Positions 1-38,275 of a stretch of DNA of 40,583 bases are shown piece after piece. The DNA is from Snodgrassella alvi (GTDB lineage Bacteria > Pseudomonadota > Gammaproteobacteria > Burkholderiales > Neisseriaceae): NCBI RefSeq assembly GCF_002777855.1, contig NZ_MEIK01000002.1:1-40583 (forward strand), written 5' to 3'. Each line of letters starts with the position of its first letter. Positions within the stretch are counted from its first letter, which is position 1. The notes beneath the pieces were generated by a model. That model did no database searches and was not told where the DNA came from. It saw nothing but the letters and a program-made list of their open reading frames with translations. The position numbers and the translations under genes were made by a program.

Positions 1-2
1 AT

Positions 3-1124: not shown

Positions 1125-1139
1125 GTCTTGTGCTCCCAA

Positions 1140-1168
1140 TAAAAAAATAAGCCGCTATAAAAACGGCT
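1140..1168 (-). terminator. Hairpin plus T-tract upstream of the AlpA-like gene
   Basis: Read leftward, a 5-bp stem (AGCCG/CGGCT) is followed by TATTTTTTT. The GGAG of the AlpA-like gene follows at once, so a promoter has little room after the hairpin and expression must come by readthrough or antitermination. Confidence 0.6.
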
Positions 1169-1197
1169 CGTTCTTGAACATTTTTAAATTACATTGT

Positions 1198-1230
1198 TAG
1201 CTAACCCTTTTATATTTTCTGGGTTAGTTA
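1198..1230 (-). repeat. Inverted repeat over the stop codon of the solenoid gene
   Basis: TAGCTAACCC (1198-1207) pairs with GGGTTAGTTA (1221-1230), a stem of about 10 bp with one mismatch and a 13-base AT-rich loop. The stop codon of the upstream leftward gene lies inside the stem. No T-tract follows directly. Confidence 0.55.
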
Positions 1231-1961: not shown

Positions 1962-1996
1962 AATATTACCCTTTCTTAGCTATAAAACACTGGGTA

Positions 1997-2488
1997 TTAA
2001 ATATAAAAGCCAGCTTTAGGCTGGTTATAATTTGACGGGACATTTTTATGAATTTGGAATTTTCTTCCATCTATGGGTTTGCCATCATTTAGAATGTCTT
2101 TGGTTAGTATGATATAACCAACAAAATCGTCTTGAAGATACAGCCCTGTTTTAACATGCTTATCAAGAAAGTCATATATAAGGGACTGCAGCTCTTGCTG
2201 CTTCTCTTCACTCAGATTACTGAAAGCCTGATATTCATCTAATTCTAATCTGTACTCTTCTTCAGTCTGTCTATCTGATTTCCAAAGCTCAAGCTCAACA
2301 TCAAAAGCACAGCACTCGCTAGCGTCAATAACTTGTTTTGTATAAACTGATATAACCAAATCTTGTTTATAAGCATCTTCATCATAGGCAAACTTACAGC
2401 GCAGCAAGTCATCGATTGAATCTAAAGGAGAGTCCCGCATGTTTGCAAAGTAACAGTAATCATCAGTACATTTAATGCATTTATTCAT
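1997..2488 (-). CDS. Acidic protein of unknown function, family copy A
   Basis: A 163-residue unrecognised protein, clearly paralogous to the product at 5060-5521. Both share IKCTDDYCY at the start, YKQDLVI.VYTK, ASEC.AFDVE and DDFVGYI.LTKDILNDGKP near the end. By eye Asp plus Glu outnumber Lys plus Arg by about 13. The start at 2488 is chosen from the paralog alignment and from GGAG 9 bases upstream; a longer in-frame start at 2545 would run through a terminator hairpin. The last codons (after QPKAG) are encoded by a hairpin. In both copies the neighbour is a solenoid gene. Confidence 0.75.
   Translation of the reverse strand: MNKCIKCTDDYCYFANMRDSPLDSIDDLLRCKFAYDEDAYKQDLVISVYTKQVIDASECCAFDVELELWKSDRQTEEEYRLELDEYQAFSNLSEEKQQELQSLIYDFLDKHVKTGLYLQDDFVGYIILTKDILNDGKPIDGRKFQIHKNVPSNYNQPKAGFYI
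2003..2025 (-). terminator. Terminator-like hairpin overlapping the 3' end of the acidic-family gene
   Basis: Leftward, CCAGC-CTAAA-GCTGG is followed by CTTTTATAT. It is a degenerate member of the palindrome family seen across the prophage, and here it lies inside the coding region. Confidence 0.5.
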
Positions 2489-2504
2489 TTGTATATACTC
2501 CATT

Positions 2505-2529
2505 AAAAAAGCCAGCTGATTAGCTGGCT
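2505..2529 (-). terminator. Palindromic terminator after the rha-like gene
   Basis: AGCCAGCTGATTAGCTGGCT (2510-2529) is a near-perfect palindrome followed leftward by T6. It begins 17 bases past the rha-like stop; the next gene's GGAG follows directly. Confidence 0.75.
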
Positions 2530-2545
2530 TGAATCTGTTACACAA

Positions 2546-3391
2546 TCAAATGATAACTTTAGGATGTAGTTCTTCAATAGGAACATCTAATCTTGAAAGG
2601 CTGCATTCACCGTGAATTACTCTAATACGTTTGGCTAGCTCAATCAGGTACTCGGCTTGCTGTTTAGTTTGCCGTAAGAGTTTCCTAAACACATCTGCAT
2701 CAACGCAGTTATAGCCGTCAATGTTTTTGACGTATTCGACGGTAGCATTTTTAACGATGACGAGCCATCTGCCATCTTGATTAAGCAAAGTTTGATTATT
2801 AGTGACAGGCTTAAACAGTTCAGGTGCATCGGGTATGCTTTGCAAGTATTTTAAGGCGGCAGTTAAATGTTTTACAGGCATCGATTTATAACTATCGATT
2901 TCCAAATACGCATGTAATCCAGCGTATATCCTTTGGTACGATTCACCCGTACGTTGACTACGTTGTTCTACGGCCAACTGTATTTGCTGCGCCTGTTCTT
3001 GGGTGATTAGGTTATTGGTAGCTGCCAAATTTATCTTTAGCTGTTTTAATTTATCAGCCAGAGTATCAAAGGCGGTGATATAGGCAATTTTAACAGCCAT
3101 TGCAGCTTTACCAGTGAATCCCATTACTAGCAGCATAAAACCGTTTTTGTTTAGTTCGTAGATTTTAGTTGTGTACGCTCCAATCCCTAAATTACTTTTT
3201 ATTTCTTTTTCTAGCGGCGCAAAATTACGTTTGTAGAAAAAATCAGGGACTTGCGTTCGAATTTCTTCAATTCTACGTAGAACATCACTGTGCTTTTTAC
3301 CAAAAGCTTTGGCCACAAATTCACTAGTGGTAACAGGTTCAGAATGATTAATTTGAACAAATTGCTCAAAGTCGATTGCTACTGCGTTCAT
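2546..3391 (-). CDS. rha: Rha-family phage regulator with ORF6C-like C-terminal domain
   Basis: A 281-residue protein. The N-terminal 110 or so residues match the Rha pattern: PVTTSEFVAKAFGKKHSDVLRRIE, then FF.RNF and TTKIYELNKNGFMLLVMGFTG. The C-terminal part (from about NNLITQEQAQQIQ) resembles the ORF6C domain and is nearly identical to the C-terminus of the AntA-type protein at 38276-39091. Rha proteins are phage regulators linked to antirepression and to interference with lytic growth. The ATG at 3391 is chosen for GAGG 8 bases upstream, over an upstream in-frame start at 3433. A hairpin-rich leader precedes it. Confidence 0.85.
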   Translation of the reverse strand: MNAVAIDFEQFVQINHSEPVTTSEFVAKAFGKKHSDVLRRIEEIRTQVPDFFYKRNFAPLEKEIKSNLGIGAYTTKIYELNKNGFMLLVMGFTGKAAMAVKIAYITAFDTLADKLKQLKINLAATNNLITQEQAQQIQLAVEQRSQRTGESYQRIYAGLHAYLEIDSYKSMPVKHLTAALKYLQSIPDAPELFKPVTNNQTLLNQDGRWLVIVKNATVEYVKNIDGYNCVDADVFRKLLRQTKQQAEYLIELAKRIRVIHGECSLSRLDVPIEELHPKVII

Positions 3392-3399
3392 GATTAAAT

Positions 3400-3625
3400 C
3401 CTCGTTTAAAGTTAATTTAATCACCGCCAACATGCCAATATTGGGGGTGAACTAAACAAGGTTGGCATACCGCTACACGAGGAAAACGGCGCTCTTGCGA
3501 GCCCTTGCTTAGTCCACCATTGAAATGGTACAACCGAGCTTGCATAAAAATACCGCTTTGAGCGGTTTATGCTCCTCAATGTATTCAGGATGCCAATCCT
3601 GACAGCTCTATTGAAAGCTGCGTAA
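3400..3625 (-). promoter_or_regulatory. Structured leader upstream of the rha-like gene
   Basis: About 220 bases without a convincing long gene but with several short inverted repeats: ACCGCTTTGAGCGGT (3551-3565), CCATTGAAATGG (3514-3525) and CAGGATGCCAATCCTG (3587-3602). A 42-codon leftward frame (roughly 3421-3549) is possible but unsupported. Antirepressor genes in other phages often have antisense RNAs (C4 type) or small overlapping frames upstream, so this may be a regulatory RNA region. I cannot match it to a known RNA family by eye. Confidence 0.4.
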
Positions 3626-3639
3626 CTATATTAGCTGTT

Positions 3640-3810
3640 TTAATTTTCATTTTCAACCTCCATTAAAAAAACATCTACGTCAATTTTTAATTCATTTAAT
3701 TCATTTAATGAGTTATTGAGCAGGGTTAATTGACCTTGAATCCGTTTGATTAGTTCAAATAGTTCACCCAAGTTTTTAACTGAAACTGAAAGAGTTATTT
3801 CTTCCGTCAT
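3640..3810 (-). CDS. Small coiled-coil-like protein, 56 residues
   Basis: Reads MTEEITLSVSVKNLGELFEL at the start and ends VFLMEVENEN. The middle has a heptad-like pattern of Leu and Ile (LFELIKRIQGQL, LLNNSLNELNELKI), suggesting a short coiled coil. The start is well supported: AGGAG lies 8 bases before the ATG, and a palindromic hairpin plus T-tract lies just upstream, as at neighbouring junctions. It sits between the SprT-like gene and the rha leader in the leftward region. Function unknown. Confidence 0.65.
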   Translation of the reverse strand: MTEEITLSVSVKNLGELFELIKRIQGQLTLLNNSLNELNELKIDVDVFLMEVENEN

Positions 3811-3831
3811 GATTTTTACTCCTAATAAAAA

Positions 3832-3860
3832 ACAAATAAAAAGCCAGCTATTAGCTGACT
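3832..3860 (-). terminator. Palindromic terminator before the 56-residue gene
   Basis: Leftward AGTCAGCTAATAGCTGGCT then TTTTTATTTG; one G-U pair in the stem. Same family as the AGCCAGCT palindromes. Confidence 0.6.
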
Positions 3861-3877
3861 TAATTTAGCAATCTGTA

Positions 3878-3896
3878 TGACCGCTTACGGCGGTCA
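3878..3896. repeat. Short GC-rich inverted repeat
   Basis: TGACCGCTTACGGCGGTCA-type palindrome between the SprT-like gene and the terminator before the 56-residue gene. It may be a second transcript 3'-end structure; there is no T-tract. Confidence 0.4.
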
Positions 3897-3980
3897 ATCG
3901 GCACATGCCTTTGACTAAGGAAAATCAAACCATGTGCTGCGCGCTGTTATTAAACCCGCCACCTGCGCGCTGGGCGGGCT

Positions 3981-4712
3981 TCAGGAATCTTCCTCAAAAA
4001 CGACAGAGCCGCAATCAGGGTTACCGCACAAAATTGATATATTCGGCTTCCCCCATACTGAAGTTTTGCAACATGGGCAAGTGTATTTACTACGATTACT
4101 TTTATTAGGCTTCTTGTTTGGAGGTATCACGAAAGGGTTTCCAGAAAAATCCCCATCCTGAGTCTTTACGAGGTTACCAAGAAGTCCTTCTACTATTCCG
4201 TCAAGGGTTTGTGTAGAATAAGGGGGCTTAGTATCAAGCCAAGGGAATTGTTCGTACTGGGTAATTAACTCTTTGCATGCGATTTCAAATGCCCCATTTT
4301 TAATGATATAGTGAGCCATTGCTTCGCCTGTTTCTTTACCCCCCTCCTTGCCCGTATCGCTTGGATACAGGCCAATCTTTTTCATTTTATCCCCCCACTC
4401 TTTATTATGGTATCCTCGTCTGCTGGGCTTTCCGTAATGTTCTTGCCATAAATGCACCTGCTCATGTACAAGAATGGAAAGTAATTCTTGTACAGATTTA
4501 ATGGCAAAAACACTTGGATTAAGTGCTATTTCGTCTGTTTTTTGATTTTTATGATTAACGAAACGATTAGGAGAGAAATAACCACCGACACCATTTTTTC
4601 TTTGAAGAGTTAATAGACAGTGAGGCAATTCATTATTAAAAAGAGTGGCATTGAAATAATCATAAGCATTCTGTAAAAATGCATACATCTCATTTGTTGG
4701 CGTTTCTTTCAT
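3981..4712 (-). CDS. SprT-like zinc metalloprotease-domain protein
   Basis: A 243-residue protein. HEQVH at residues 83-87 is the HExxH zinc site, His102 (GYHNKEW) is a likely third ligand, and a C-terminal zinc ribbon has CPCC near 212-215 and CGNPDC near 229-234. This order (N-terminal helices, HExxH, zinc ribbon) is that of SprT/Spartan-like proteins, which in other organisms cut DNA-crosslinked proteins. Substrates of phage versions are not known. AAGGA lies 6 bases before the ATG. It lies in the leftward early region, so it would act soon after induction. Confidence 0.85.
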   Translation of the reverse strand: MKETPTNEMYAFLQNAYDYFNATLFNNELPHCLLTLQRKNGVGGYFSPNRFVNHKNQKTDEIALNPSVFAIKSVQELLSILVHEQVHLWQEHYGKPSRRGYHNKEWGDKMKKIGLYPSDTGKEGGKETGEAMAHYIIKNGAFEIACKELITQYEQFPWLDTKPPYSTQTLDGIVEGLLGNLVKTQDGDFSGNPFVIPPNKKPNKSNRSKYTCPCCKTSVWGKPNISILCGNPDCGSVVFEEDS

Positions 4713-4728
4713 TTTTTTCCTTGTCTAT

Positions 4729-4750
4729 TTTTGGATTGCACAATCCAAAA
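4729..4750. repeat. 22-bp palindrome between the SprT-like gene and the small secreted-protein gene
   Basis: TTTTGGATTG-CA-CAATCCAAAA is a perfect inverted repeat just past the stop of the leftward 79-residue gene. It can form a stem with a GTGC loop and may be a terminator without a strong T-tract. A one-mismatch version recurs at about 15934-15953. Confidence 0.5.
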
Positions 4751-4755
4751 TCTGT

Positions 4756-4995
4756 TCAATATTCTTTGTAGGCCTCTGCGTCACCTCGTGTGCGTTCTTT
4801 ATCCGACATCTGTGCATAGGCATCAGCCATGCGCTTAACCTTTAAATCTGCCTGTAATTCCTTTTCCTGCTTTAGCCGTGCCGAGTAATCACTTTGCATC
4901 TGTTCTTGTTCTTGCAAGGTTAAAGCGGGGGAAACAGTTAAAAAGGTAGCCATAAAAAAAACTGCAATGAATGCAGTTATCTGTACCTTTATCAT
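4756..4995 (-). CDS. Small putative secreted protein
   Basis: A 79-residue protein. Residues 1-27 form a signal peptide (Lys near the start, a hydrophobic run FIAVFFMATFLTV, cleavage plausible after SPA). The mature part is charged and helical (EQEQMQSDYSARLKQEKELQ), with a possible coiled coil. The ATG at 4995 has AGGAGG 5-6 bases upstream. Family not recognised. Exported helical proteins in phage early regions may act on the envelope or in superinfection exclusion, but nothing here shows that. Confidence 0.65.
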   Translation of the reverse strand: MIKVQITAFIAVFFMATFLTVSPALTLQEQEQMQSDYSARLKQEKELQADLKVKRMADAYAQMSDKERTRGDAEAYKEY

Positions 4996-5036
4996 GATTC
5001 CTCCTTTGAATTTTACTGGCTAAATATAGGGCCACG

Positions 5037-5060
5037 GAAAAGCCAGCTAGTTAGCTGACT
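5037..5060 (-). terminator. Palindromic terminator after acidic-family copy B
   Basis: Leftward AGTCAGCTAACTAGCTGGCT then TTTTCC, overlapping the stop codon of the gene before it. Confidence 0.6.
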
Positions 5061-5521
5061 TATACTATTGACGGGTAAGTTTTATGGATTTGGAATTTTC
5101 TTCCATCTATCGGTTTACCATCATTTAGAATGTCTTTGGTTAATACAATATAACCAACAAAATCATCTGTAATGAACACCCCTGTTTTAATACGCTCATC
5201 AAGAAAGTTATTAATAATACACTTTAACTCTTGCTTGTCTTCCTCTTTCATATTCTGATATGTATTTCTATCTTCGAAATCATACTCTTCTTCAAATATG
5301 CAGTCAGACTCTTCAAGCAAATACTCAACATCAAAAGCACTACACTCGCTGGCTTTAACAATTTTTTTTGTATAAACTGTTATAACCAAATCTTGTTTAT
5401 AACCACCTTTATTGATGTCAAATTTCCAGTACAACAAATCATCGACTGAATCAAAAATAAGGGTGTCCTGTTTGTTTAAAACATAACAGTAATCATCAGT
5501 ACATTTAATGTATTTACTCAT
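5060..5521 (-). CDS. Acidic protein of unknown function, family copy B
   Basis: A 153-residue paralog of the 1997-2488 product, sharing IKCTDDYCY, VDDLLY.KFD, YKQDLVITVYTK, ASECSAFDVE and DDFVGYIVLTKDILNDGKP. It is shorter at the C-terminus, ending just after the common segment. The central part is rich in Glu and Asp (FEEEYDFEDR). GGAG 8 bases upstream supports the ATG at 5521, and the upstream sequence is nearly the same as that before copy A. It follows solenoid gene 2. Function unknown; an acidic DNA-mimic or inhibitor is one untested idea. Confidence 0.75.
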   Translation of the reverse strand: MSKYIKCTDDYCYVLNKQDTLIFDSVDDLLYWKFDINKGGYKQDLVITVYTKKIVKASECSAFDVEYLLEESDCIFEEEYDFEDRNTYQNMKEEDKQELKCIINNFLDERIKTGVFITDDFVGYIVLTKDILNDGKPIDGRKFQIHKTYPSIV

Positions 5522-5535
5522 TGACTATACTCCAT

Positions 5536-5561
5536 TAAAAAAGCCAGCTAATTAGCTGGCT
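5536..5561 (-). terminator. Palindromic terminator overlapping the stop of solenoid gene 2
   Basis: AGCCAGCTAATTAGCTGGCT (5542-5561), a perfect 20-bp palindrome, then leftward T6. The final codons and TAG of the solenoid gene lie within the stem. Confidence 0.75.
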
Positions 5562-6165
5562 GTGTTCCATTCTGTGGGTTAGAAGAGGGTTGGATTATAT
5601 TAACCTTTCCATCAATTTTAGCATTATCTTTAACATCAAGGTTTTGGGTGTTTAATTCCACATAAACCCGTATGTAACTATTATCACGAGCGTTGACTAC
5701 ATGTGCGGTTAATATATCAACCCAAATACGAGCCCAATCACGAACGTTGGCTTCTTGAGCATTTATTTCCTCAGCTTTGATAGAAGCATAATTACCATAA
5801 ACGGTTATTGTTTGGGTATATATTTCCTTAGCTTTAATGTAATCTTCGCCAGAAAGCTCGATACCATCTTCAACGGTTAATCTACCTCCTATAATTAAGC
5901 GACAGCCGCCATGTATTTTACTTTTAACGTGAACATCACCGTTATAGAAAAAGTAACCTTTGGGAAGTTTATCTAAAATTAAAGAGTGATGATTTTTTTT
6001 GGTGAATGCTATTATACACTCAGCATATCCTACATATCTATCTGCACATTTAGGCTCTGCGTTCGCTAATTCTTGTAACTTTTGTAGCCACTCAGAAAAT
6101 AATCTAAATCCTTTCTTATAAAGTCTTTTAATAATTCCGAGGTCTAGTTCGTTTTGATTTTCCAT
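5548..6165 (-). CDS. Beta-solenoid repeat protein, paralog 2 (divergent)
   Basis: A 205-residue protein. Its N-terminal helical part is the most divergent of the five: the GAC..G motif is replaced by LGIIKRLYKKGFRLFSEW. It keeps LQELA, the strand entry (GYFFYNGDVHVKSKIHGG..IIGG) and the solenoid repeats (IKAEEINAQEANVRDWARIWV, then the next turn). The C-terminal tail NIIQPSSNPQNGTQPAN is shared with other paralogs. The ATG at 6165 lacks a strong Shine-Dalgarno, so the start is less sure. Function unknown. Confidence 0.7.
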   Translation of the reverse strand: MENQNELDLGIIKRLYKKGFRLFSEWLQKLQELANAEPKCADRYVGYAECIIAFTKKNHHSLILDKLPKGYFFYNGDVHVKSKIHGGCRLIIGGRLTVEDGIELSGEDYIKAKEIYTQTITVYGNYASIKAEEINAQEANVRDWARIWVDILTAHVVNARDNSYIRVYVELNTQNLDVKDNAKIDGKVNIIQPSSNPQNGTQPAN

Positions 6166-6187
6166 AGTATTTGCTTCTAAACTACAA

Positions 6188-6213
6188 TAAAAAAGCCAGC
6201 TAATTAGCTGGCT
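6188..6213 (-). terminator. Palindromic terminator between solenoid genes 3 and 2
   Basis: AGCCAGCTAATTAGCTGGCT (6194-6213) followed leftward by T6. Confidence 0.75.
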
Positions 6214-6247
6214 GTGTTTGTATTCTGTGGGTTAGAAGAGGGGCGGA

Positions 6248-6976
6248 TTAAATTACCTCGCCATGAATTCTCGCTTGACCGTTAACTGATATTTTGGCGT
6301 CTATTGTTACTGCAAGAATTCCCGAGTGGTCATAAGCCTTAACATTTTTGGCATCTATTGTTCCCGCTGAAATTCTTGTGTCGCCATAAGCCTTAACATT
6401 TTTGGCGTCTATTGTTTTATTCGCCAAAATTCCCGAGTGGTCATAAGCCTTAACATTTTTGGCATCTATTGTTTCCGCCGCCGAAATTGCCGCCTCACCA
6501 TAAGCTGTAATATTTTTGACATCTATATTTCCCTTTGCCGAAATTTTTGCGTGATGATCAGCTGTAATCTTTATGGCATTTATATTTCCATTCGCCAAAA
6601 TATACGCGTAACTAGCTACATAAACACCACCCTTAATATTTACGTCGCCATTACCAATAATAAAACGCTCACCATAAATACCGGACTTAATGTCTATATT
6701 GCCGTTATGAATGATAACCTTTTCTGTAAGTTCATTTAGAACTAAGGTCTCCTGAGTCGGTGGAAAATGGAGAATTAACCAACCGGCATAGCCTATGTAA
6801 TCTGAGTAGACTATATATTCAGTGGTTGTGCTAACTACTTTTTGTAGGTCACTCAGCACTTCAGAGATGGGAGCGGAGTCGTTAGGGTATTTCTTTTTAA
6901 AAAATTCAAGCAGTTTCTCACTTGCACCCATTTTGGCAAGTATGTCAAGCGATAAGAAAATCTCTTTTTCATGCAT
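6248..6976 (-). CDS. Beta-solenoid repeat protein, paralog 3, tail lost by frameshift
   Basis: A 242-residue protein. The N-terminal module reads LAKMGASEKLLEFFKKKYPNDSAPISEVL, where Ser replaces the motif Cys. It is followed by FPPTQETLVLNELTEKVIIHNGNIDIK and repeats of 18-19 residues (TIDAKNVKAYDHSGILA type, 54-57 bp apart in DNA). It ends HGEVI. Adding one base before AATTTAATCC would restore a tail ending NLIRPSSNPQNTNTAS, almost the same as paralog 5, so a single-base deletion has removed about 17 residues. AAAGGACAG precedes the ATG. Function unknown. Confidence 0.72.
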   Translation of the reverse strand: MHEKEIFLSLDILAKMGASEKLLEFFKKKYPNDSAPISEVLSDLQKVVSTTTEYIVYSDYIGYAGWLILHFPPTQETLVLNELTEKVIIHNGNIDIKSGIYGERFIIGNGDVNIKGGVYVASYAYILANGNINAIKITADHHAKISAKGNIDVKNITAYGEAAISAAETIDAKNVKAYDHSGILANKTIDAKNVKAYGDTRISAGTIDAKNVKAYDHSGILAVTIDAKISVNGQARIHGEVI

Positions 6977-7000
6977 AATATCTGTCCTTTAACCGGTAAC

Positions 7001-7025
7001 AAAAAAGCCAGCTGATTAGCTGGCT
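7001..7025 (-). terminator. Palindromic terminator between solenoid genes 4 and 3
   Basis: AGCCAGCTGATTAGCTGGCT (7006-7025) then leftward T5-6, only about 25 bases before the next start codon. Confidence 0.75.
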
Positions 7026-7043
7026 GTGTTTGTTTTCTGTGAG

Positions 7044-7658
7044 TTAGTTATAAGAATGTTGGATTAAATTAATCTCACCACGAATTCTTGTCCCAGTATC
7101 ATCCATAATATTTTGGACGTTTATTTTCTCCGCCCAAATTTCCGAGTCACCATAAGCCGCAATATTTATGGCTTTTATTGTTTCTGCCACAATTTCCGCG
7201 TAATCATCGGCCATAATATTTTCGGCGTCTATTGTTTCCGCCTCAATTTCCGCGAGATCATCAAGCGTGATATTTTTGGCTTTTACGTTTTTCGCCCAAA
7301 TTTCCACACATCCATTTAAATCACCTTCAATATTTAAGTCGCCATTACCAATAATGACATGGTCACCAGCTATATTAGCCTTAATGGTCAAATTGCCGTT
7401 ATAAATGATAATCTCTCTATTAAGTTCGTTTAGAACTAAGGGCTCCTGAGTCGGTGGGAATGTGTCGAATAACCACTTGGCGCAGTCTACGTATTTTACG
7501 TATTCAGTGTCTGTGTTAGCTAATATTTGAAGGTAACTAAGCACTTCAGAGAGGGTAGCGGAGCCGCTAGGGTACCACTTTTCAAAATCTTCAAGCTCTT
7601 GCTCACTTGCACCTTTTTCAGCAAGTATGCTAAGTGTCAATACAATCTCTTTTTGCTT
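7044..7658 (-). CDS. Beta-solenoid repeat protein, paralog 4
   Basis: About 204 residues from MKQKEIVLTLSILAEKGASE. That start (7658) aligns with the other paralogs, so the in-frame ATG at 7688 is probably too far upstream. The order is the same: N-terminal helical module (EDFEKWYPSGSATLSEVLSYLQ), FPPTQEPLVLNEL linker, strand entry with IIIYNGNLTIK and VIIGNGDLNIEG, then solenoid turns (IDAENIMADDYAEIVAETIKA). It ends INLIQHSYN, a shorter tail than paralog 5. Function unknown. Confidence 0.73.
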   Translation of the reverse strand, partial: KQKEIVLTLSILAEKGASEQELEDFEKWYPSGSATLSEVLSYLQILANTDTEYVKYVDCAKWLFDTFPPTQEPLVLNELNREIIIYNGNLTIKANIAGDHVIIGNGDLNIEGDLNGCVEIWAKNVKAKNITLDDLAEIEAETIDAENIMADDYAEIVAETIKAINIAAYGDSEIWAEKINVQNIMDDTGTRIRGEINLIQHSYN

Positions 7659-7686
7659 CATGCTATTTACCTTTGTAAACGGTAAC

Positions 7687-7711
7687 AAAAAAGCCAGCTA
7701 CTTAGCTGGCT
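7687..7711 (-). terminator. Palindromic terminator overlapping the stop of solenoid gene 5
   Basis: AGCCAGCTACTTAGCTGGCT (7692-7711) then leftward T6. The TAA of the gene falls in the loop or stem. Confidence 0.75.
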
Positions 7712-8361
7712 GTGTTTGTATTCTGCTGGTTAGAAGAGGGGCGGATTAAATTAATATCGCCATGAATTCCATCATAAGAATCATCTATAATATTTTGGGT
7801 GTTTATTTTCTTCGCCGAAATTCTTGCGTTGCCATAAGCTGCAATATTTATGGCGTCTATTGTTTTCTTTACCCAAATTGCCGCGTAGCCATAAACCGCA
7901 ATGTTTGTGGCGTCTATTATTTTCGCCGCAATTCCCGTAGAATCATCAAGCGCGATATTCTGGAATTTTGCTTTTTTCACCCAAATATATGTGTTGCCAG
8001 TTAAATTAGCACTACTCTTAATATTTAAGTTACCATTACTAATAATGGTATATTCACCCTTGACACCTTTCTTAATAGTCAAATCGCCGTTATGTATGAT
8101 AACTTTTTCTGTTAATTCGTTTAGGACTAAGGGTTTCTGAGTTGATGGGAAGCGGAGAAGTAACCACTTGGCGTATTCTATGTATATTTCGTATTCATCG
8201 TAGTCAGCACTTGTGCTAGCTAATTCCTGAAGCTTTCTAAGCACTTCAGTGAGGGTTGCGTGGCCGTTAGGGTACCACTTTTCAAAATCATAAAGCCCTT
8301 GTTCGCAAGCGCCTCTGTCAGCAAGGAGTTCCAGTGACAAGACAATGTCTGTTTTCTTCAT
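7702..8361 (-). CDS. Beta-solenoid repeat protein, paralog 5
   Basis: A 219-residue protein with the clearest N-terminal motif: LELLADRGACEQGLYDFEKW, then YPNGHATLTEVLRKLQELA. The linker FPSTQKPLVLNELTEKVIIH precedes strand entry and solenoid turns (IDATNIAVYGYAAIWVKKT, IDAINIAAYGNARISAKK). Its intact tail INLIRPSSNQQNTNTAS is the reference for the damaged tail of paralog 3. GGATAGATATC before the ATG gives a weak Shine-Dalgarno. It is the first of four adjacent solenoid genes in the direction of transcription. Function unknown. Confidence 0.75.
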   Translation of the reverse strand: MKKTDIVLSLELLADRGACEQGLYDFEKWYPNGHATLTEVLRKLQELASTSADYDEYEIYIEYAKWLLLRFPSTQKPLVLNELTEKVIIHNGDLTIKKGVKGEYTIISNGNLNIKSSANLTGNTYIWVKKAKFQNIALDDSTGIAAKIIDATNIAVYGYAAIWVKKTIDAINIAAYGNARISAKKINTQNIIDDSYDGIHGDINLIRPSSNQQNTNTAS

Positions 8362-8386
8362 GATATCTATCCTTGTTACCGGTAAT

Positions 8387-8411
8387 AAAAATGCCAGCTA
8401 GTTAGCTGGCT
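8387..8411 (-). terminator. Palindromic hairpin before solenoid gene 5
   Basis: GCCAGCTAGTTAGCTGGC (8393-8410) then leftward ATTTTTA. Same family. Confidence 0.65.
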
Positions 8412-8448
8412 GTAGTTGTTTTCTGTAGATTAATTAGAAGAGGGTAAG

Positions 8449-8735
8449 TCAATTAAAATAATCTCGCCAGTTTTGGACAAAAACTGCGCGTTTACGTATA
8501 GGTTGAGAATAATATTCACGGTAATTAGCTTTAGGCATGGGTATATCTTCTATTGGAATGTAATGAGTAATCTCTTCTAATGAGTGTCCCGACCATTCTG
8601 GCGGCTCGATAGAATATAAATAATCTGTACGCACTCTGCCCTCTGGTTTATTGGTACGACGCACAATTAAGTAGACGCCTTTTTAGTAGGCCACCCATCT
8701 TTTTCTACTGAATGCCAATTAATATGATTAATCAT
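8449..8735 (-). pseudogene. DUF551-like gene broken by a -1-type frameshift
   Basis: Two frames together make one protein. The first, from ATG 8735, reads MINHINWHSVEKDGWPTKK and then reaches a stop after AST. Joined at AAAAAGG (about 8677-8683) the second frame continues GVYLIVRRTNKPEGRVRTDY and ends at 8449, with SLEEITHYIPIEDIPMP near the end. The pattern 'W....DGWP...G.Y' with a C-terminal 'TH..P....P' is that of DUF551-type phage proteins. AAGGAG lies 9 bases before the ATG. A lost A in the A-run, a sequencing error or ribosomal slippage on AAA-AAG would each explain it. The distal half alone would start at GTG 8664 without a ribosome site. Confidence 0.6.
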
Positions 8736-8891
8736 CACTTTATTCTCCTTGAATTAATTGAAATATTGTAAACCTGTAATACGCTGCGATTAAATCCAAA
8801 AACTAAAGCCTGTTTAGGGGCAGGCTTAGATTTTTGAACTAGTGTATGTTTAGCTGGTTTTTAAGTGTTACTCCTCGCTACCATCATCGCG

Positions 8892-9605
8892 CTAAAATGG
8901 CATGTCAGGTTGCGCATCTGGTTCAGCTGGTACCTCAGGTACAGCCTTAGGCTTAGTAGGATTAATCTGTTGTATGAGGTGTTCATACGCTCGTACAACA
9001 TCCTCTTCTGAGGTAAAAAGTAGGCCTGATTCCAAAAGACGCATACAACGGCTTTCATTGCAATTAAATGGCTGTTGTATATAACCACATGGAGTAAAGG
9101 TGCTTAAGGCAAACACTATTGTTCCATCTGCAGGGGCTTCGGTTAGACAATTGAAGTTTTGTCTTAAGACTTCGGCTTTCAGCGCTGCTAAAATAAATTT
9201 AGCTGCTGCGCTGGCGTCCTTTTCGGAGGAAAACAGCATGTGGTTTTTTAGAGCTTTCTGATGCTGCTCATGAGACTGAGAAAAACCTATTGAAAAACAG
9301 TATTGAGTCATGGTAAAAGCAATAACCCAAACCTCAGCACTCTCATCCGGCTGAGAAGTAATGCATCCGGGGAGAGGTTCTGTTTTACGCATCAAATTTA
9401 ATATAATATTTGCAGCGCATTTTGCGTGTTTTTCCTCTTCAAAAGCAATACCTCTGTCCAGTACCCTATAATCAAAGCCATCCGCATCAAAAGTATATTT
9501 AAACACTTCTAAAGCCTCACTATCATCTTTAAAAATAGGCTGCACAGTAAAATAAACAGTTCCTTCATTTGGGATTTCTTCCATAGGTTTAATCTTCTTA
9601 GTCAT
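8892..9605 (-). CDS. Three-repeat phage protein with SSB-like C-terminal tip
   Basis: A 237-residue protein of unknown function. Three similar units are visible, each with a strand segment and then a '..LLF.SE.DA..AA..I' helix: GIAFEEEKHAKCAANIIL, HMLFSSEKDASAAAKFILAA and GLLFTSEEDVVRAYEHLIQ. A Pro/Ala/Glu-rich linker leads to the C-terminus QPDMPF, resembling the acidic DDDIPF tip of SSB, which this phage also encodes. The start at 9605 is chosen for GGAG 6 bases upstream; an ATG at 9617 overlaps that site. It is an early gene of the pL transcript, so a role in replication or recombination is possible. Confidence 0.65.
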   Translation of the reverse strand: MTKKIKPMEEIPNEGTVYFTVQPIFKDDSEALEVFKYTFDADGFDYRVLDRGIAFEEEKHAKCAANIILNLMRKTEPLPGCITSQPDESAEVWVIAFTMTQYCFSIGFSQSHEQHQKALKNHMLFSSEKDASAAAKFILAALKAEVLRQNFNCLTEAPADGTIVFALSTFTPCGYIQQPFNCNESRCMRLLESGLLFTSEEDVVRAYEHLIQQINPTKPKAVPEVPAEPDAQPDMPF

Positions 9606-9624
9606 TTCTATCTCCATTAAGAAA

Positions 9625-9650
9625 AATTAAAGCCAGCGAATTTGCTGGCT
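9625..9650 (-). terminator. Palindromic hairpin upstream of the three-repeat gene
   Basis: AGCCAGCGAATTTGCTGGCT (9631-9650) then leftward TTAATTTTTC. Variant of the common palindrome. Confidence 0.6.
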
Positions 9651-9662
9651 TGGTGTATAAAT

Positions 9663-9800
9663 TTAAAAACTAAAGCGCACCCACTTATTAGCAAATGCGC
9701 TGCGGTTTTTAAACTTACTATCCTGTGTAACGATATCTATGTATTTGTACATTTTGATACAAACTATATCAGATAATTTTTGAAGTCGTTCTCCTTTCAT
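9663..9800 (-). CDS. Small hypothetical protein, 45 residues
   Basis: From ATG 9800 the product begins MKGERLQKLSDIVCIKMYKY and ends KNRSAFANKWVRFSF. It is the first possible gene of the pL transcript, after the structured leader. The ribosome site is poor (AAAGAATTTAT), and an internal ATG is also possible. The Lys/Arg-rich tail with aromatic residues looks protein-like rather than random. Function unknown. Confidence 0.4.
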   Translation of the reverse strand: MKGERLQKLSDIVCIKMYKYIDIVTQDSKFKNRSAFANKWVRFSF

Positions 9801-9834
9801 ATAAATTCTTTGGATTTTTAGACTTGTCTGTCTG

Positions 9835-9970
9835 TAAGCCTTACCGGCCTACCGGTTTTGTTCTGGCCGCCCGCTAAGGCTTAACGGCTTGCCAGCAAGC
9901 TCCTTAACTTGCCTCGGGCTTTTATATTCCGCCGCCCTGAGCCGATGCGGTGAAGCTGTATTGCTTCGAT
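9835..9970 (-). promoter_or_regulatory. Structured untranslated leader of the pL transcript
   Basis: About 170 bases between pL and the first possible gene. It is GC-richer than its surroundings, with a long inverted repeat AAGCCTTA (9836-9843) with TAAGGCTT (9875-9882) enclosing paired GGCC/GGCC. A second hairpin, GCTTGCCAGCAAGC, spans 9887-9900. Position and folding recall leader RNAs used for transcription antitermination (HK022 put, lambda nut). No boxA or put consensus can be assigned by eye, so function is inference. Confidence 0.4.
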
Positions 9971-9976
9971 GTATGT

Positions 9977-9994
9977 AGTTTAGAAAACTAAACT
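9977..9994. promoter_or_regulatory. Left operator OL1-like
   Basis: AGTTTAGAAAACTAAACT, a near-perfect palindrome with the same GTTTAG/CTAAAC half-sites as the right operators. Confidence 0.75.
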
Positions 9995-10005
9995 TATGAA
10001 GTCAA
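9977..10005 (-). promoter_or_regulatory. Leftward early promoter (pL-like)
   Basis: On the minus strand TTGACT (10005-10000) is followed after 17 bases by TAAACT (9982-9977). The operator at 9977-9994 covers the spacer and -10, so repressor binding would block it. It drives the leftward accessory region. Confidence 0.7.
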
Positions 10006-10008
10006 GAA

Positions 10009-10026
10009 ATATTTAGAAAACTATAC
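10009..10026. promoter_or_regulatory. Left operator OL2-like
   Basis: ATATTTAGAAAACTATAC, a weaker version of OL1, centred 32 bases (about three helical turns) away and upstream of the pL -35. Confidence 0.65.
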
Positions 10027-10030
10027 AAAA

Positions 10031-10223
10031 AAAAGAGAATAATATTTTAGTTAATTGATTTTACTAAGAAATCTTATTTATAATTCTAAACATTTTTGTT
10101 GTTTTAAGGTGATGCCTATTCTTGGCAAAAGGGTTTTGCTGCTTAGTATTTATATAACTGTTGATACATGGTTAGAGTTTAGTGCATCAAATAAACTAAT
10201 GAATGTAATCAATTACCAAGCAA
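10031..10223. other. AT-rich gap between pL and the cI terminator
   Basis: About 190 bases in the place where lambda carries rex genes. A 72-codon rightward frame (10055-10273) exists but has no ribosome site and runs against cI into its terminator. I see no supported gene here. Confidence 0.5.
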
Positions 10224-10253
10224 AAAAATACTGCAACCATGTGCAGTATTTTT
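10224..10253 (-). terminator. cI terminator (bidirectional)
   Basis: AATACTGCA-ACCATG-TGCAGTATT with A and T tracts on either side, placed 20 bases after the repressor stop codon. Confidence 0.8.
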
Positions 10254-10274
10254 ACTTAAGAATTAAAAATTAAT

Positions 10275-11000
10275 TTATACATCTAGAAAATCTAGGGGTA
10301 ACGCTTTCCAAAATTTACCATGAATTATTAATTGGTCTAGCTCATTGGGATTAATATCAAAATCCGTATCTGAATATAGTTTATTATCAGATATAACCCT
10401 TATTACACCGGATTTCCCTCTTGCTAGCCTTTTGATATAGGTGTACCCATCAAATGTAATTAGGTAAACGCCACTATCTTGAAATCTGTCAATGTCGGTT
10501 TTGATAAGCGTTATAGAACGTCTTGGGATTGTTGGTTCCATTGAGTCACCATCAGGGGGCATTAGTTCTACCCCTTGAAGGCTTGTGGTGCCTAATAACT
10601 CAATTAGAGCATCATTAGGGATTTCTATAGTTCTAAGAAGTTCTGGAAATTCAGGAATTACGGTTCCTTGTCCGCAAGAGGCTTTCATGTCGTACAATTT
10701 TAGAGTTGTGGAATTACTGTTTACTTCTTCCAATGCGCTAGATTCTTTATATGCTGAAATGGGAGCGCTATTAGTTCCATCTTTATATTTCGAGCCCGTT
10801 CCATTGACTAGCCATTGTGACGAAAATCTTGTTTTCTTCTCTAATTCTAACAACGGCTTTGTTCCCAAGCCTGTCTCGCCACTAAACCACTGATTAACTA
10901 ATCCCTTGCTTACTTTAGCAAAGGTTGCTAATTCGCTTTGCGTGGTCAAACCAGATTCAACCATCAATTCTTTTAAACGGTCTCTTAGTGTACTAGGCAT
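10275..11000 (-). CDS. cI: CI-type repressor, HTH plus LexA/S24 peptidase domain
   Basis: A 241-residue protein. The N-terminal XRE-type HTH covers about residues 15-45 (QSELATFAKVSKGLVNQWFS). A linker leads to an S24 domain with a Cys-Gly cleavage site at 109-110 (KASCGQG), catalytic Ser153 (GDSMEPTI) and Lys190 (YTYIKRLAR). It should hold lysogeny by binding the five palindromic operators on both sides and lose function by RecA-stimulated self-cleavage during DNA damage. AAGGA lies 6 bases before the ATG. It is divergent from the Cro-like gene. Confidence 0.93.
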   Translation of the reverse strand: MPSTLRDRLKELMVESGLTTQSELATFAKVSKGLVNQWFSGETGLGTKPLLELEKKTRFSSQWLVNGTGSKYKDGTNSAPISAYKESSALEEVNSNSTTLKLYDMKASCGQGTVIPEFPELLRTIEIPNDALIELLGTTSLQGVELMPPDGDSMEPTIPRRSITLIKTDIDRFQDSGVYLITFDGYTYIKRLARGKSGVIRVISDNKLYSDTDFDINPNELDQLIIHGKFWKALPLDFLDV

Positions 11001-11015
11001 ATTAATTCCTTACAT

Positions 11016-11035
11016 TTGTTTAGCAGTCTAAACAA
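11016..11035. promoter_or_regulatory. Right operator OR3-like
   Basis: TTGTTTAGCAGTCTAAACAA, palindrome just upstream of the cI start, well placed for repressor autoregulation. Confidence 0.7.
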
Positions 11036-11052
11036 AAAAAGGTATAGTTTGC

Positions 11053-11082
11053 TTGACTTTACATTGTTTAGTAAACTATACT
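11053..11082 (+). promoter_or_regulatory. Rightward early promoter (pR-like)
   Basis: TTGACT (11053-11058), 18 bases, then TATACT (11077-11082). An operator overlaps the spacer and -10. Transcription would start just before the third operator and enter the Cro-like gene. Confidence 0.7.
11063..11080. promoter_or_regulatory. Right operator OR2-like
   Basis: ATTGTTTAGTAAACTATA, a partial palindrome lying over the pR spacer and -10. Confidence 0.65.
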
Positions 11083-11086
11083 TTAT

Positions 11087-11103
11087 CCAGTTTTCTAAAC
11101 TGG
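11087..11103. promoter_or_regulatory. Right operator OR1-like
   Basis: CCAGTTTTCTAAACTGG, palindrome at the expected pR start region, 10 bases before the Cro-like start codon. Confidence 0.65.
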
Positions 11104-11112
11104 AATATATAA

Positions 11113-11319
11113 ATGTATGAAAAAGATGAATTATTCATAGAAAGTATAGGTGGCGTCACTAAGGTAGCAAAATTATGTGGCATAACTCGTGGAGCAGTTT
11201 CTCAATGGAAAAACAACGGAATTCCTAAAGCACAACTTAATTTTTTAAAAACACTTTACGCAAAAGAGTACATGGCAATTTACATCGAAAAACAACCAAA
11301 AATAGCCAAAAATTCTTAA
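11113..11319 (+). CDS. cro: Cro-like repressor (YdaS/Cro HTH)
   Basis: A 68-residue protein with a single HTH: GGVTKVAKLCGITRGAVSQW followed by GIPKAQLNFLK. This short antitoxin-like Cro form (YdaS/Cro type) pairs with S24 repressors in many lambdoid phages. It is the first gene of the pR transcript and divergent from cI. No strong Shine-Dalgarno precedes the ATG (CTGGAATATATAA), as in some near-leaderless cro genes. It would compete for the shared operators and commit to lytic growth. Confidence 0.82.
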   Translation: MYEKDELFIESIGGVTKVAKLCGITRGAVSQWKNNGIPKAQLNFLKTLYAKEYMAIYIEKQPKIAKNS

Positions 11320-11349
11320 AAGGCAAATGCTTAGAATTGGGAAAATTCA

Positions 11350-11562
11350 ATGGTGAATAAACCAACTCAAAAAGTTCAGATTCTTGAATTCATGCGTGCC
11401 GGTAATTCGATTACCCCATTAGAAGCCCTGTACAGATTTGGCTGTATGCGCCTAGGCGCAAGGATTTATGACCTTAAACAAGATGGGCATGTAATCAGCA
11501 CGCAGCTTGTTAAAGACGAAAATTCTGGGGCACGTTATGCGTGTTATGCGCTAGTAAAGTAA
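11350..11562 (+). CDS. Small helix-turn-helix protein (HTH_39-like)
   Basis: A 70-residue protein. The pattern QKVQILEFMRAGNSITPLEA, then FGCMRLGARIYDLKQDGHVI and a Tyr-rich end fits the winged-helix family typical of small phage proteins next to replication genes. It lies between cro and the O-like gene. The ribosome site is weak (GGGAAAATTCA). Binding target unknown; a role in early gene control is inferred. Confidence 0.75.
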   Translation: MVNKPTQKVQILEFMRAGNSITPLEALYRFGCMRLGARIYDLKQDGHVISTQLVKDENSGARYACYALVK

Positions 11563-11571
11563 AGGTGCAAT

Positions 11572-36314: not shown

Positions 36315-36341
36315 AGCCAGCTAATTAGCTGGCTATTTTTT
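36315..36341 (+). terminator. Palindromic terminator before the bet-like gene
   Basis: AGCCAGCTAATTAGCTGGCT (36315-36334), the same perfect palindrome as in the leftward region, then rightward ATTTTTT. Confidence 0.75.
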
Positions 36342-36353
36342 ATGGAGAACAAA

Positions 36354-37106
36354 GTGAATACACAATTGACAGAATTAAGTAACAAACTCGCAAAAACCTT
36401 TGATTTAGGAAGCGGTCAAGGATTAATAGAAACGCTTAAAAAAACAGCATTCAAGGGGGAAGTAACCCCCGAGCAGATGGCGGCCTTGTTAATCGTTGCT
36501 AATCAATACAAATTAAACCCATGGACATCTGAAATATATGCATTCCCAAGCAATGGCGGCATTACTCCGGTAGTAGGCGTTGATGGCTGGGCGCGGATTA
36601 TAAATGCTAATTCGCAATTTGATGGGATGGATTTTGAATATAACGAGAATAGTTGTACTTGTCGAATTTACCGCAAAGACCGCGCCCACCCCGTTTCTGT
36701 TACTGAATTTATGAGTGAGTGCAGACGCAACACGCAGCCGTGGAAAACCCATCCTAACCGCATGCTGAGACACAAGGCAATGATTCAGGCGGCGCGATTG
36801 GCTTTTGGTTTTGCTGGAATTTACGACGAAGACGAGGCAGAAAGAATCAAAAACGCAAAAGATTGCGTGGGTGAAGATGAGCCTAACCCATTTGCCGGCG
36901 ATTTACATAACCCTGAAAGGCAAAATCTAATAACGGAGGCTGAGCAAGTCGCACAGAAAGGCGATATTGATTTACTTCGTGAACATTTTAGAAGCTTATC
37001 AACAGAACAGCGCGCAATCATAGGCACGGATGAGATGGTACGCATATCTAATATTGCTAAAGACGTCGAATTAAATACCGTCGATGCGGAAATAAAGGAG
37101 GCTTAA
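36354..37106 (+). CDS. bet: Phage recombination protein Bet (RecT-type annealase)
   Basis: A 250-residue protein. Typical Bet pattern: LIETLKKTAFKGEVTPEQMA, LLIVANQYKLNPWTSEIYAF, then GITPVVGVDGWARIINANSQ and RMLRHKAMIQAARLAFGFAG. It anneals single strands in phage recombination with the exonuclease next to it. The start is GTG 36354, with GGAG 6 bases upstream; the ATG at 36342 sits inside ATGGAG at the end of a T-tract, which elsewhere in this phage is the ribosome site. Confidence 0.9.
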   Translation: MNTQLTELSNKLAKTFDLGSGQGLIETLKKTAFKGEVTPEQMAALLIVANQYKLNPWTSEIYAFPSNGGITPVVGVDGWARIINANSQFDGMDFEYNENSCTCRIYRKDRAHPVSVTEFMSECRRNTQPWKTHPNRMLRHKAMIQAARLAFGFAGIYDEDEAERIKNAKDCVGEDEPNPFAGDLHNPERQNLITEAEQVAQKGDIDLLREHFRSLSTEQRAIIGTDEMVRISNIAKDVELNTVDAEIKEA

Positions 37107-37108
37107 AA

Positions 37109-37720
37109 ATGGAGCAACGAACTGATGAATGGTTTGCCGCTCGGCTTGGTAAGGTAACAGGCAGCCGAATTGCCGACGTCACAGCAAAAATTAAATCCGG
37201 ATATGCGGCAGCACGTAAAAATTATATGTCGCAGTTGCTTTGCGAACGCCTGACCGGCGTGCATGAAAGCATTTTTGTAAACGCAGCGATACAACGCGGC
37301 ATCGACCTTGAGCCCAAAGCCCGTTCTAATTATATTCTTTTAACTGGAGAGTTAGTTGAAGAAGTCGGATTCATTAACCATCCTACCATTCAAATGTCTG
37401 GGGCGTCTCCTGATGGGTTGGTAGGGCATGATGGATTATTAGAAATTAAATGCCCTAACACATCTACACACCTAGATTTCATCAGAACTAAAAAACCTAA
37501 ATCCGAATATATGTTGCAAATGCAATGGCAGATGGTGTGCACGGGTAGGAAATGGTGCGATTTTGTTAGTTATGATGACCGGTTACCAAAGAATCTTGCT
37601 TTCAGTTCTGTTCGTATTTTTAGGGACGATGAAAAAATAATCGAATTAGAAGCAGAGGTTAATAAATTTTTAGGTGAATTAGACGAATTAGCAAAATCTG
37701 TATTATTAATGGCCGCTTAA
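37109..37720 (+). CDS. YqaJ/lambda-Exo-type exonuclease
   Basis: A 203-residue protein: TDEWFAARLGKVTGSRIADV at the start, Glu68 (DLEPKAR), Asp102 (GASPDGLV), Glu112-x-Lys114 (LLEIKCP) and LQMQWQMVCTGRKWCDFVSY. This is the complete YqaJ nuclease core. It degrades one DNA strand from ends to supply single strands for Bet. AAAGGAGG lies 8 bases before the ATG, and 2 bases separate it from bet. Confidence 0.93.
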   Translation: MEQRTDEWFAARLGKVTGSRIADVTAKIKSGYAAARKNYMSQLLCERLTGVHESIFVNAAIQRGIDLEPKARSNYILLTGELVEEVGFINHPTIQMSGASPDGLVGHDGLLEIKCPNTSTHLDFIRTKKPKSEYMLQMQWQMVCTGRKWCDFVSYDDRLPKNLAFSSVRIFRDDEKIIELEAEVNKFLGELDELAKSVLLMAA

Positions 37721-37731
37721 AGAGGGGTGCT

Positions 37732-38220
37732 ATGTCTGTAAACAAAGTAATTTTAGTTGGTCGCCTAGGCCGAGACCCTGAAACGCGTTATATGCCCAGT
37801 GGGGATGCGGTAACTAATTTCCCCCTTGCTACTGATGAAAAATGGAAAGATAAAAGCGGGCAGCAACAGACTAAAACCGAATGGCATAATATTACGCTGT
37901 ACGGTAAATTAGGGGAAATCGCCAGCCAGTATCTACGCAAAGGCAATCAGATTTTCATAGAGGGGCGGATACAAAGCCGTAAATACACCGGCAAAGATAA
38001 TGTGGAGCGATTGGCCTACGACATCATCGGGAATGAAATGAAGATGCTAGGCAGTCGGGATGATGGCGCGCGCAGCGACAGAAATGGCTATGGAAGTCAT
38101 GTCGCAGCCCCTGTGGCATCAGTGCCAACCTCGTCGCCCGCACCAACTCAGCGACAGCCGCACCAGTATCAGCAATCCCCGCCGGTGGTTGATGATATAG
38201 ATGACGACATACCGTTTTAG
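37732..38220 (+). CDS. ssb: Single-stranded DNA-binding protein
   Basis: A 162-residue protein. The OB fold covers residues 1-105 (NKVILVGRLGRDPETRYMPS to AYDIIGNEMKMLG), then a Gln/Pro-rich linker and the canonical acidic tip DDIDDDIPF. It protects single strands in recombination and replication. AGAGGGG lies before the ATG. Last of the bet-exo-ssb cassette and convergent with the AntA-type gene. Confidence 0.96.
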   Translation: MSVNKVILVGRLGRDPETRYMPSGDAVTNFPLATDEKWKDKSGQQQTKTEWHNITLYGKLGEIASQYLRKGNQIFIEGRIQSRKYTGKDNVERLAYDIIGNEMKMLGSRDDGARSDRNGYGSHVAAPVASVPTSSPAPTQRQPHQYQQSPPVVDDIDDDIPF

Positions 38221-38239
38221 CCGTTCAAGCTTGTAGCAA

Positions 38240-38259
38240 AGCCAGCTGATTAGCTGGCT
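38240..38259. terminator. Shared palindrome between convergent ssb and antA-type genes
   Basis: AGCCAGCTGATTAGCTGGCT, identical to that at 2510-2529 and continuous with the duplicated 3' end of the two antirepressor genes. Here no T-run of more than three follows on either side. Confidence 0.6.
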
Positions 38260-38275
38260 TGAATCTGTTACACAA

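Follow-up and report, generated by a model that had tools for sequence, protein, structure and literature searches.

Predicted beta-solenoid genes and repeated intergenic hairpins in the early region of a Snodgrassella prophage

Why should the early region of one prophage hold five diverging genes for what appears to be a single kind of repeat protein? The question is raised by a contig of 40,583 nucleotides (nt) which, taken whole, is the stretch analysed here (the window); it belongs to a 2.34-Mb genome of the bee-gut bacterium Snodgrassella and corresponds to uncultivated virus genome 2849409164_000001 of IMG/VR. An initial annotation had described five leftward genes encoding an N-terminal helical module (N-module) followed by a beta-solenoid, and reading frames, alignment and a structure model confirm them (paralogs A–E, Table 1). 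The analyses presented here also bring out what that annotation had missed, namely a family of hairpins lying between the genes. We suggest, with a probability of roughly 0.5, that the array encodes early accessory proteins of modular build, whose genes are multiplied and shuffled as cassettes bounded by hairpins, with downstream genes that would depend on read-through and with a function that is probably host-directed.

Hairpin-bounded gain, loss and exchange in one prophage trio

Near-copies of one terminator-like stem-loop precede most of the leftward genes and separate the solenoid genes from one another. Allowing up to three mismatches, the window contains 11 palindromic sites, read as 22 strand matches where 0.11 would be expected; the exact core AGCCAGC-N3-8-GCTGGCT has 10 sites in the genome, eight of them inside the 40.6-kb prophage, and a reversed control pattern has none in the genome. 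Ten window hairpins that were folded have core stems of 7–9 pairs (−11.4 to −14.7 kcal/mol), and T-runs follow the window hairpins in the direction of the genes, with the exception of that at 38240. Among 45 sites counted in 14 partly redundant Snodgrassella prophage sources, 44 carry at least four T within 8 nt of the T-richer side and 35 have the start of an open reading frame (ORF) no more than 60 nt away; within the window, stem and start codon are 26–30 nt apart for four paralogs and 48 nt apart for the fifth. Judged by stem and T-run, the hairpins may well act as terminators. With two of the 10 exact sites outside the prophage in its own genome, a genome-wide host terminator or uptake sequence is not favoured. 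The 14 Snodgrassella genomes have 1–13 sites each, many of them clustered by eye among the sites listed. In viral contigs at large the hairpin with T-run matches 57 stretches, and several separate sites per contig were seen only in this prophage and in two contigs with near-identical arrays, the remaining matches being isolated sites or one palindrome read on both strands.

In particular, we have established that genes are gained or lost, and exchanged, between hairpins in one trio of prophages, formed by the window and its relatives L015 and L160 (L-numbers denote the loci or contigs of relatives used in comparisons). L160 and L015 share two stretches, of 3,780 nt (99.2% identity) and 3,421 nt (99.8%), which in L015 alone are separated by 1,978 nt holding a solenoid gene, a partner gene and a gene of 191 aa; both joints are at hairpins. 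With thresholds of 300 nt and 95% identity, comparison of the window with 9.2 kb of L015 gave two blocks, 6182-7007 (97.8%) and 5038-5561 (98.5%), which end in hairpins or no more than 12 nt from them; paralog C matches its L015 copy at 237 of 242 residues, and the protein of partner gene 1 has identical copies in the L015 and L143 contigs. Moreover, a block shared with L160 (88.7%) begins at the hairpin at 9631, a 516-nt duplicate (2508, 38238) has an edge at a hairpin, and the Bet/RecT-RecE-SSB set is flanked by the hairpins at 36315 and 38240. Taking block edges from 18 sources together, 7 of 21 fall at exact hairpins and 9 of 21 when the 5041 variant is admitted, duplicates included. We regard hairpin-bounded cassettes as a probable feature of these prophages. 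Since small genes directly after hairpins in L048 (L048:6719-7198 and L048:12319-12621, after the hairpins at 6691-6712 and 12279-12297) also diverge fast, with ratios of nonsynonymous to synonymous substitution (dN/dS) of 0.80 and 0.67–0.84, the cassette pattern is wider than the solenoid family. In L015 a PAPS-reductase-like gene (L015:5800-6720, named by eye) forms a hairpin-bounded cassette between both solenoid genes.

Near-identical hairpins would supply short identical stretches for the duplication, loss and exchange of cassettes between related prophages. Considering that lambda Red is reported to recombine diverged sequence well (PMC2327257), the phage's own Bet/RecT-RecE-SSB set, itself hairpin-flanked here, is a reasonable and, we infer, likely agent of the exchange.

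Anatomy, divergence and fold of the solenoid proteins

All five solenoid genes are open reading frames on the minus strand (for paralog B the ORF list offers a longer TTG start option, from 7688), and a search of the genome returned seven matching pieces, every one inside these genes and thus no further copy. Identity to paralog A falls from 56% in B (7044) and 55% in E (1224) to 44% in C (6248) and 30% in D (5548), and in four of the five genes the rod DNA is composed of tandem 54–57-nt units. The period of 18–19 residues per turn proposed earlier is borne out in 1224, 6248 and 7044, where identity at lag 18–19 (0.26–0.37) exceeds all 500 shuffles of each, and is not distinguished in 5548 and 7702, where it is 0.15 and 0.19 and within the shuffled range. 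The motifs put forward as a shared design are likewise shared in part: the FPPTQ/LVLNEL linker, close variants allowed, is found in four copies and not in 5548; the PSSN tail in 1224, 5548 and 7702, with HSYN in 7044 and nothing comparable in 6248; and the GAC/GAS motif in 6248, 7044 and 7702 only, with DAC in 1224. A query with one copy against 83 genomes of the family matched six (the own genome included), all in Snodgrassella, which makes up 14 of the 83; the other genome of the same species gave no match. Against five copies in the window, its relatives show one or two, and the ORFs of the close relatives L017 and L018 differ in length (205 and 238 aa), their N-modules agreeing at 83 of 85 positions. 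Taken with repeat period, alignment and dN/dS, these results support tandem, diverging paralogs of one design and variable turn number, and we hold the anatomy of the array to be close to certain.

The proteins change rapidly. Median dN/dS is 0.71 for 22 solenoid pairs versus 0.27 for 40 pairs of other prophage genes (Mann–Whitney p 1e-5, the pairs being non-independent); among window pairs, six passed the filters and gave 0.60–1.35, and pairs with P0002 failed them. Core values are lower than surface values in nine of nine pairs, marginally so in two (0.73/0.74 and 0.48/0.51).

The beta-solenoid fold is supported by an AlphaFold2 model of P0005 (7702-8361), the one copy modelled, built from 16 aligned proteins of the window and of viral contigs. 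The model has a mean predicted local distance difference test score (pLDDT) of 92.5 and a predicted template modelling score of 0.86; helices lie within residues 10–70, strands span 78–205 and the tail is disordered. Foldseek searches with it returned nothing at E<=0.001 from the PDB, where bactofilin 2n3d ranked 49 (E 3.8), or from viral models, where the best two matches (E 0.006 and 0.008, probability 1.00) were to proteins lacking a characterization or a name. The earlier comparison with bactofilins holds for relatives and fails, by sequence, for the window copies themselves. In the Pfam scan no window copy reached a curated cutoff, the bactofilin family PF04519 being listed for one of five (P0002, E 0.18, 12.5 bits against a gathering score of 27.9), and a PHROG scan gave weak matches only (best 0.018). 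Among seven relatives, PF04519 was above the curated cutoff in L008, L009, L021 and L010, the four scores being 30.3, 34.1, 45.6 and 45.4 bits, in no stated order of loci, and the other three failed; the second L020 gene reached 58.9 bits (E 5.9e-16), phmmer with its protein found bactofilin A 2n3d at E 0.0038, and PF04519 was listed at E<=1 in 12 of 18 family members. Since relatives pass the cutoff though the window copies do not, we class the rod, on sequence, as bactofilin-like by kinship within the family. An L045 protein was rejected as a member and looks FapA-like (name by eye). None of 10 proteins matched PADLOC defence profiles at E<=1, the Pfam match lists of window copies and relatives contained no pentapeptide-repeat family, and no one functionally described family was found to cover both module and solenoid.

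The N-module, its rods and its neighbours in other phages

The N-module has no match to a Pfam family, and its best match among PDB sequences has an E value of 0.43. Across 399 genomes of the order a profile search matched 17, counting the own genome, and four of the others (L023-L026) encode a protein with module and solenoid; among the inspected loci from that search, L027, L028, L030 and L033 have no module by eye. A profile built from L023-L026, without Snodgrassella rows, recovers the window copies (best 2.3e-10). Further, 126 stretches of viral contigs encode GIKAG-type relatives, and in the best 80 of these the module was recognized by hidden Markov model cutoffs at 29 loci, several of them near-identical, with one gene apiece. 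To speak of an undescribed system, as had been proposed, is accordingly too strong for the array alone. A search with the module only gave 51 loci with 48 distinct readings, in which at least four rod types are attached to it: GIKAG solenoids, GSSGYSAQIG repeats, Ala-rich repeats and ATTGSWAPA repeats. The module groups are linked by profile–profile comparison: A12/A11 (E 9e-19; the same N-module in other phages), A11/A13 (6e-24; the GSSGYSAQ-repeat group) and A11/A14 (2e-18; the Ala-rich, Imm5-like group). Searches of the phages and plasmids collections with P0004, and of the phages collection with the L008 and L021 proteins, gave no match; the L024 protein as query found one record. Since rods are exchanged on a constant module, we place the conserved function in the module, which is likely the docking part.

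The N-module of L248, L250, L247 and L244 is joined to Ala-rich repeats that are in part Imm5-like, which unexpectedly ties phage early genes to repeats resembling immunity proteins; the Imm5-like Pfam match is above cutoff in L248 (32.6 bits, cutoff 25) and below it in L250. Pfam Collagen matches above cutoff on the GSSGYSAQ rods of L241 and L243 were read as composition and not as kinship.

At 20 loci viewed by eye, many module genes have recombination or replication genes close by; L064, L067, L079 and L075 are examples with no such neighbours by eye. A PHROG scan of 56 downstream neighbours gave exonuclease phrog_69 (four members), DNA helicase phrog_16 (four), SbcC-like proteins (three), DNA methyltransferase (three), Sak4-like proteins (two) and ssDNA-binding or annealing proteins (two), and seven further neighbours, picked because they looked like recombination genes, were all confirmed as such. 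Thus L252 (TTGSWAPA type) is preceded by RecT- and RecE-like genes, phrog_69 exonuclease stands after the L237 and before the L069 module genes, an exonuclease follows L214, an exonuclease VIII-like gene follows L246, and a Sak4-like gene precedes L068. In Snodgrassella, L016-L019 have genes for an annealing protein or exonuclease and SSB downstream (names by eye) and L020 a Sak4-like gene; L015 and L021 have none by eye.

The remaining features of the window (Table 1) agree with the earlier placement of the array in a prophage early region, given the integrase end, the CI-like and Cro-like genes, Rha and the C4 and isrK RNAs; a C4/isrK pair beside Rha resembles P1-type antirepressor control. 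The two copies of the 516-nt duplication (2508-3023 and 38238-38753, 97.3%) span the C-terminal part of the Rha gene, and the second gene at the duplication (38276-39109) differs from it in its N-terminus. The AlphaFold2 model of the partner protein is poor (61.0). Proteins that look similar to the product of the first leftward gene occur near solenoid genes in L008, L009 and L016.

Table 1. Positions of the solenoid genes, hairpins and other features in the window
Feature	Position	Strand	Remarks
Solenoid paralog A, P0005, 219 aa	7702-8361	minus	N-module, beta-solenoid, PSSN tail
Solenoid paralog B, P0004, 205 aa	7044-7661	minus	acidic, net −22
Solenoid paralog C, P0003, 242 aa	6248-6976	minus	no PSSN tail
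Solenoid paralog D, P0002, 205 aa	5548-6165	minus	N-module shortened
Solenoid paralog E, P0001, 245 aa	1224-1961	minus	57-nt internal repeats
Hairpin before paralog A	8392..8411	minus	T-run in gene direction
Hairpin before paralog B	7692..7711	minus	
Hairpin before paralog C	7006..7025	minus	end of block common to L015
Hairpin before paralog D	6194..6213	minus	opposite end of paralog-C block (edge 6182)
Hairpin before partner 1	5542..5561	minus	end of second L015 block
Variant hairpin (one mismatch) after partner 1	5041..5060	minus	opposite end of second block (edge 5038)
Hairpin before partner 2	2510..2529	minus	edge of 516-nt duplicate of 38238-38753
Shorter hairpin before paralog E	2010..2024	minus	
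Hairpin variant between SprT-like gene and Rha block	3841..3861	minus	
Hairpin before first leftward-operon gene	9631..9650	minus	edge of 88.7% L160 block
Hairpin before recombination module	36315..36334	plus	
Hairpin after recombination module	38240..38259	plus	T-run weak
Bet/RecT-like annealing protein, RecE-like exonuclease, SSB	36342..38220	plus	block flanked by two hairpins
Cassette partner gene 1, 153 aa	5060..5521	minus	no family match above cutoff
Cassette partner gene 2	1997..2545	minus	homolog of partner 1
First gene of leftward early operon, 241 aa	8892-9617		internal repeats apparent by eye
SprT-like putative metallopeptidase	3981-4712		early operon; PF10263, E 4e-10
C4 antisense RNA and isrK-like RNA	3440-3621		directly upstream of Rha regulator; Rfam, above gathering score
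Rha regulator	early region		PHROG profile scan
Integrase end	69-866		name by eye
CI-like repressor	10275-11000	minus	name by eye
Cro-like gene	starts 11113	plus	name by eye

Possible roles and comparison with known systems

Considering these features together, each protein would combine a small helical N-module, likely for docking, with a bactofilin-like rod whose turn number and surface change fast, so that docking would go through the module and specificity would come from the rod. With hairpins about 26–30 nt before four of the five start codons, downstream genes would need read-through or antitermination of one early-left transcript, and early expression of the array may be presumed. The proteins may then serve during infection as host-directed factors, most plausibly protecting or serving phage DNA recombination or replication, or countering host defence. 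This host-directed function, the likeliest of those considered, is the weakest step of the explanation, and an early role of that kind is put forward tentatively, the main rivals being a polymer scaffold and neutral decay. An anti-CRISPR role is not favoured, since Snodgrassella genomes are reported, in the part of the source concerned, to harbour no CRISPR systems (PMC12586679).

Several findings weigh against the reading of the array as shuffled, host-directed cassettes. No antiterminator was identified; 12 of the 21 block edges lie away from hairpins, all of them between other prophages, and the chance of four edges falling at hairpins, 1e-5 over the region, rises to 0.004 for edges confined to intergenic sequence. 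Positive selection, for which dN/dS was computed over whole genes and over surface and core, was not demonstrated: the ratios are near 1 in non-independent pairs, other small genes of the same prophages give 0.80–1.06, and the values are 0.51–1.43 for the surface and 0.42–0.95 for the core. Two copies look eroded (P0002 in its N-module, P0003 in its tail), and the Pfam, PHROG and PADLOC profile scans gave no functional match. The association with recombination genes was counted without a base-rate control, and the seven single neighbours were preselected by appearance. Finally, the module was present at E<=0.001 in 2 of 369 genomes of an even sample of the class, own included, and so, for a search of this sensitivity, is no common feature of bacterial genomes.

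The solenoids might instead join end to end into a bactofilin-like filament or sheet that organizes phage DNA or the host envelope, the paralogs giving mixed filaments. The predicted fold, the PF04519 scores of the four relatives and the second L020 gene, and the phmmer match to 2n3d speak for such a polymer; we consider it unlikely, given that bactofilin solenoids have free ends whereas a helical module precedes the solenoid in the window proteins, that turn number varies, that the window copies stay below the PF04519 cutoff, and that the N-module carries rods unlike bactofilins in other phages. The eroded copies, the dN/dS of 0.60–1.35 in window pairs and a solenoid gene apparently broken across two frames in L052 (L052:6001-6675) would suit slowly decaying duplicates, kept as tandem copies by recombination at the hairpins under relaxed selection and mostly without a present role. 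That all five frames are open, that the core has the lower dN/dS in every pair (two marginal) and that single copies persist across diverse viral contigs make this quite unlikely.

Additionally, the genes might be morons, expressed in lysogeny to block superinfection by other phages, in agreement with terminator-bounded cassettes that are present or absent between strains. Since four of the five genes have only 26–30 nt between hairpin and start codon, there seems to be no room for a promoter between them, and a consensus scan of 1-12000 gave 30 promoter-like sites, no more than shuffled sequence does (mean 39); we find this role improbable. A decoy role, raised in the initial annotation, would, if it took the form of DNA mimicry, have the proteins inhibit a nuclease, a restriction enzyme or gyrase of the host, in the manner of pentapeptide-repeat or Gam-type proteins. 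Recombination genes do adjoin in other phages, and P0004 is strongly acidic; over window copies and relatives, however, the net charge of the solenoid runs from −14 to +5 and is not consistently acidic, and the Pfam matches listed include no pentapeptide family. DNA mimicry is accordingly rejected as a family trait and is a highly improbable role.

Beyond the array itself, interest lies mainly in the directly visible exchange joints and in the unnamed common module, a phage domain with swappable rods and no Pfam match, whose binding partner offers a handle for finding its function. It is conceivable, although doubtful, that the hairpin before early accessory genes and around recombination genes is an exchange joint that lets temperate phages gather modular counter-host proteins, multiply them and trade them, and that an undescribed docking module with interchangeable rods engages a conserved partner in the recombination of phage or host DNA. 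Among the best-ranked titles from searches of the open-licence literature none concerned the solenoid proteins or the hairpins.

Among known systems, bactofilins (PF04519) have the beta-solenoid in common with the window proteins and match several of their relatives above cutoff; the window proteins differ in the helical N-module, the variable turn number, their place among phage early genes and scores below cutoff. The beta-solenoids of YdcK, FapA and MinC give weak profile matches to the family, below curated cutoffs where shown. A phage moron is a gene with its own promoter and terminator; the window resembles it in single accessory genes with a predicted terminator (hairpin and T-run), and differs in having an array of paralogs with no promoter of their own visible. 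Integron gene cassettes, which go with an integron integrase and attC recombination sites, are taken here as no more than an analogy. The start-associated sequences (SAS) and extended SAS of Cluster K mycobacteriophages (PMC3203893) are likewise repeated inverted repeats right before many start codons; they are 17-bp imperfect repeats for which the passages concerned mention no T-run, whereas here a terminator-like hairpin of 7–9 bp is repeated and some cassette joints lie at it. It has long been asked whether short boundary sequences or illegitimate recombination give rise to phage mosaicism, and the question is now directly testable, since near-identical hairpin repeats stand in one operon and joints between prophages of about 99% identity lie at the hairpin. 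As with the boundary sequences for which homologous recombination has been proposed (PMC3029335, in the part concerned), a short common sequence marks the joints of modules; here one such sequence recurs along an operon, and joints at it are seen directly in the trio of window, L015 and L160.

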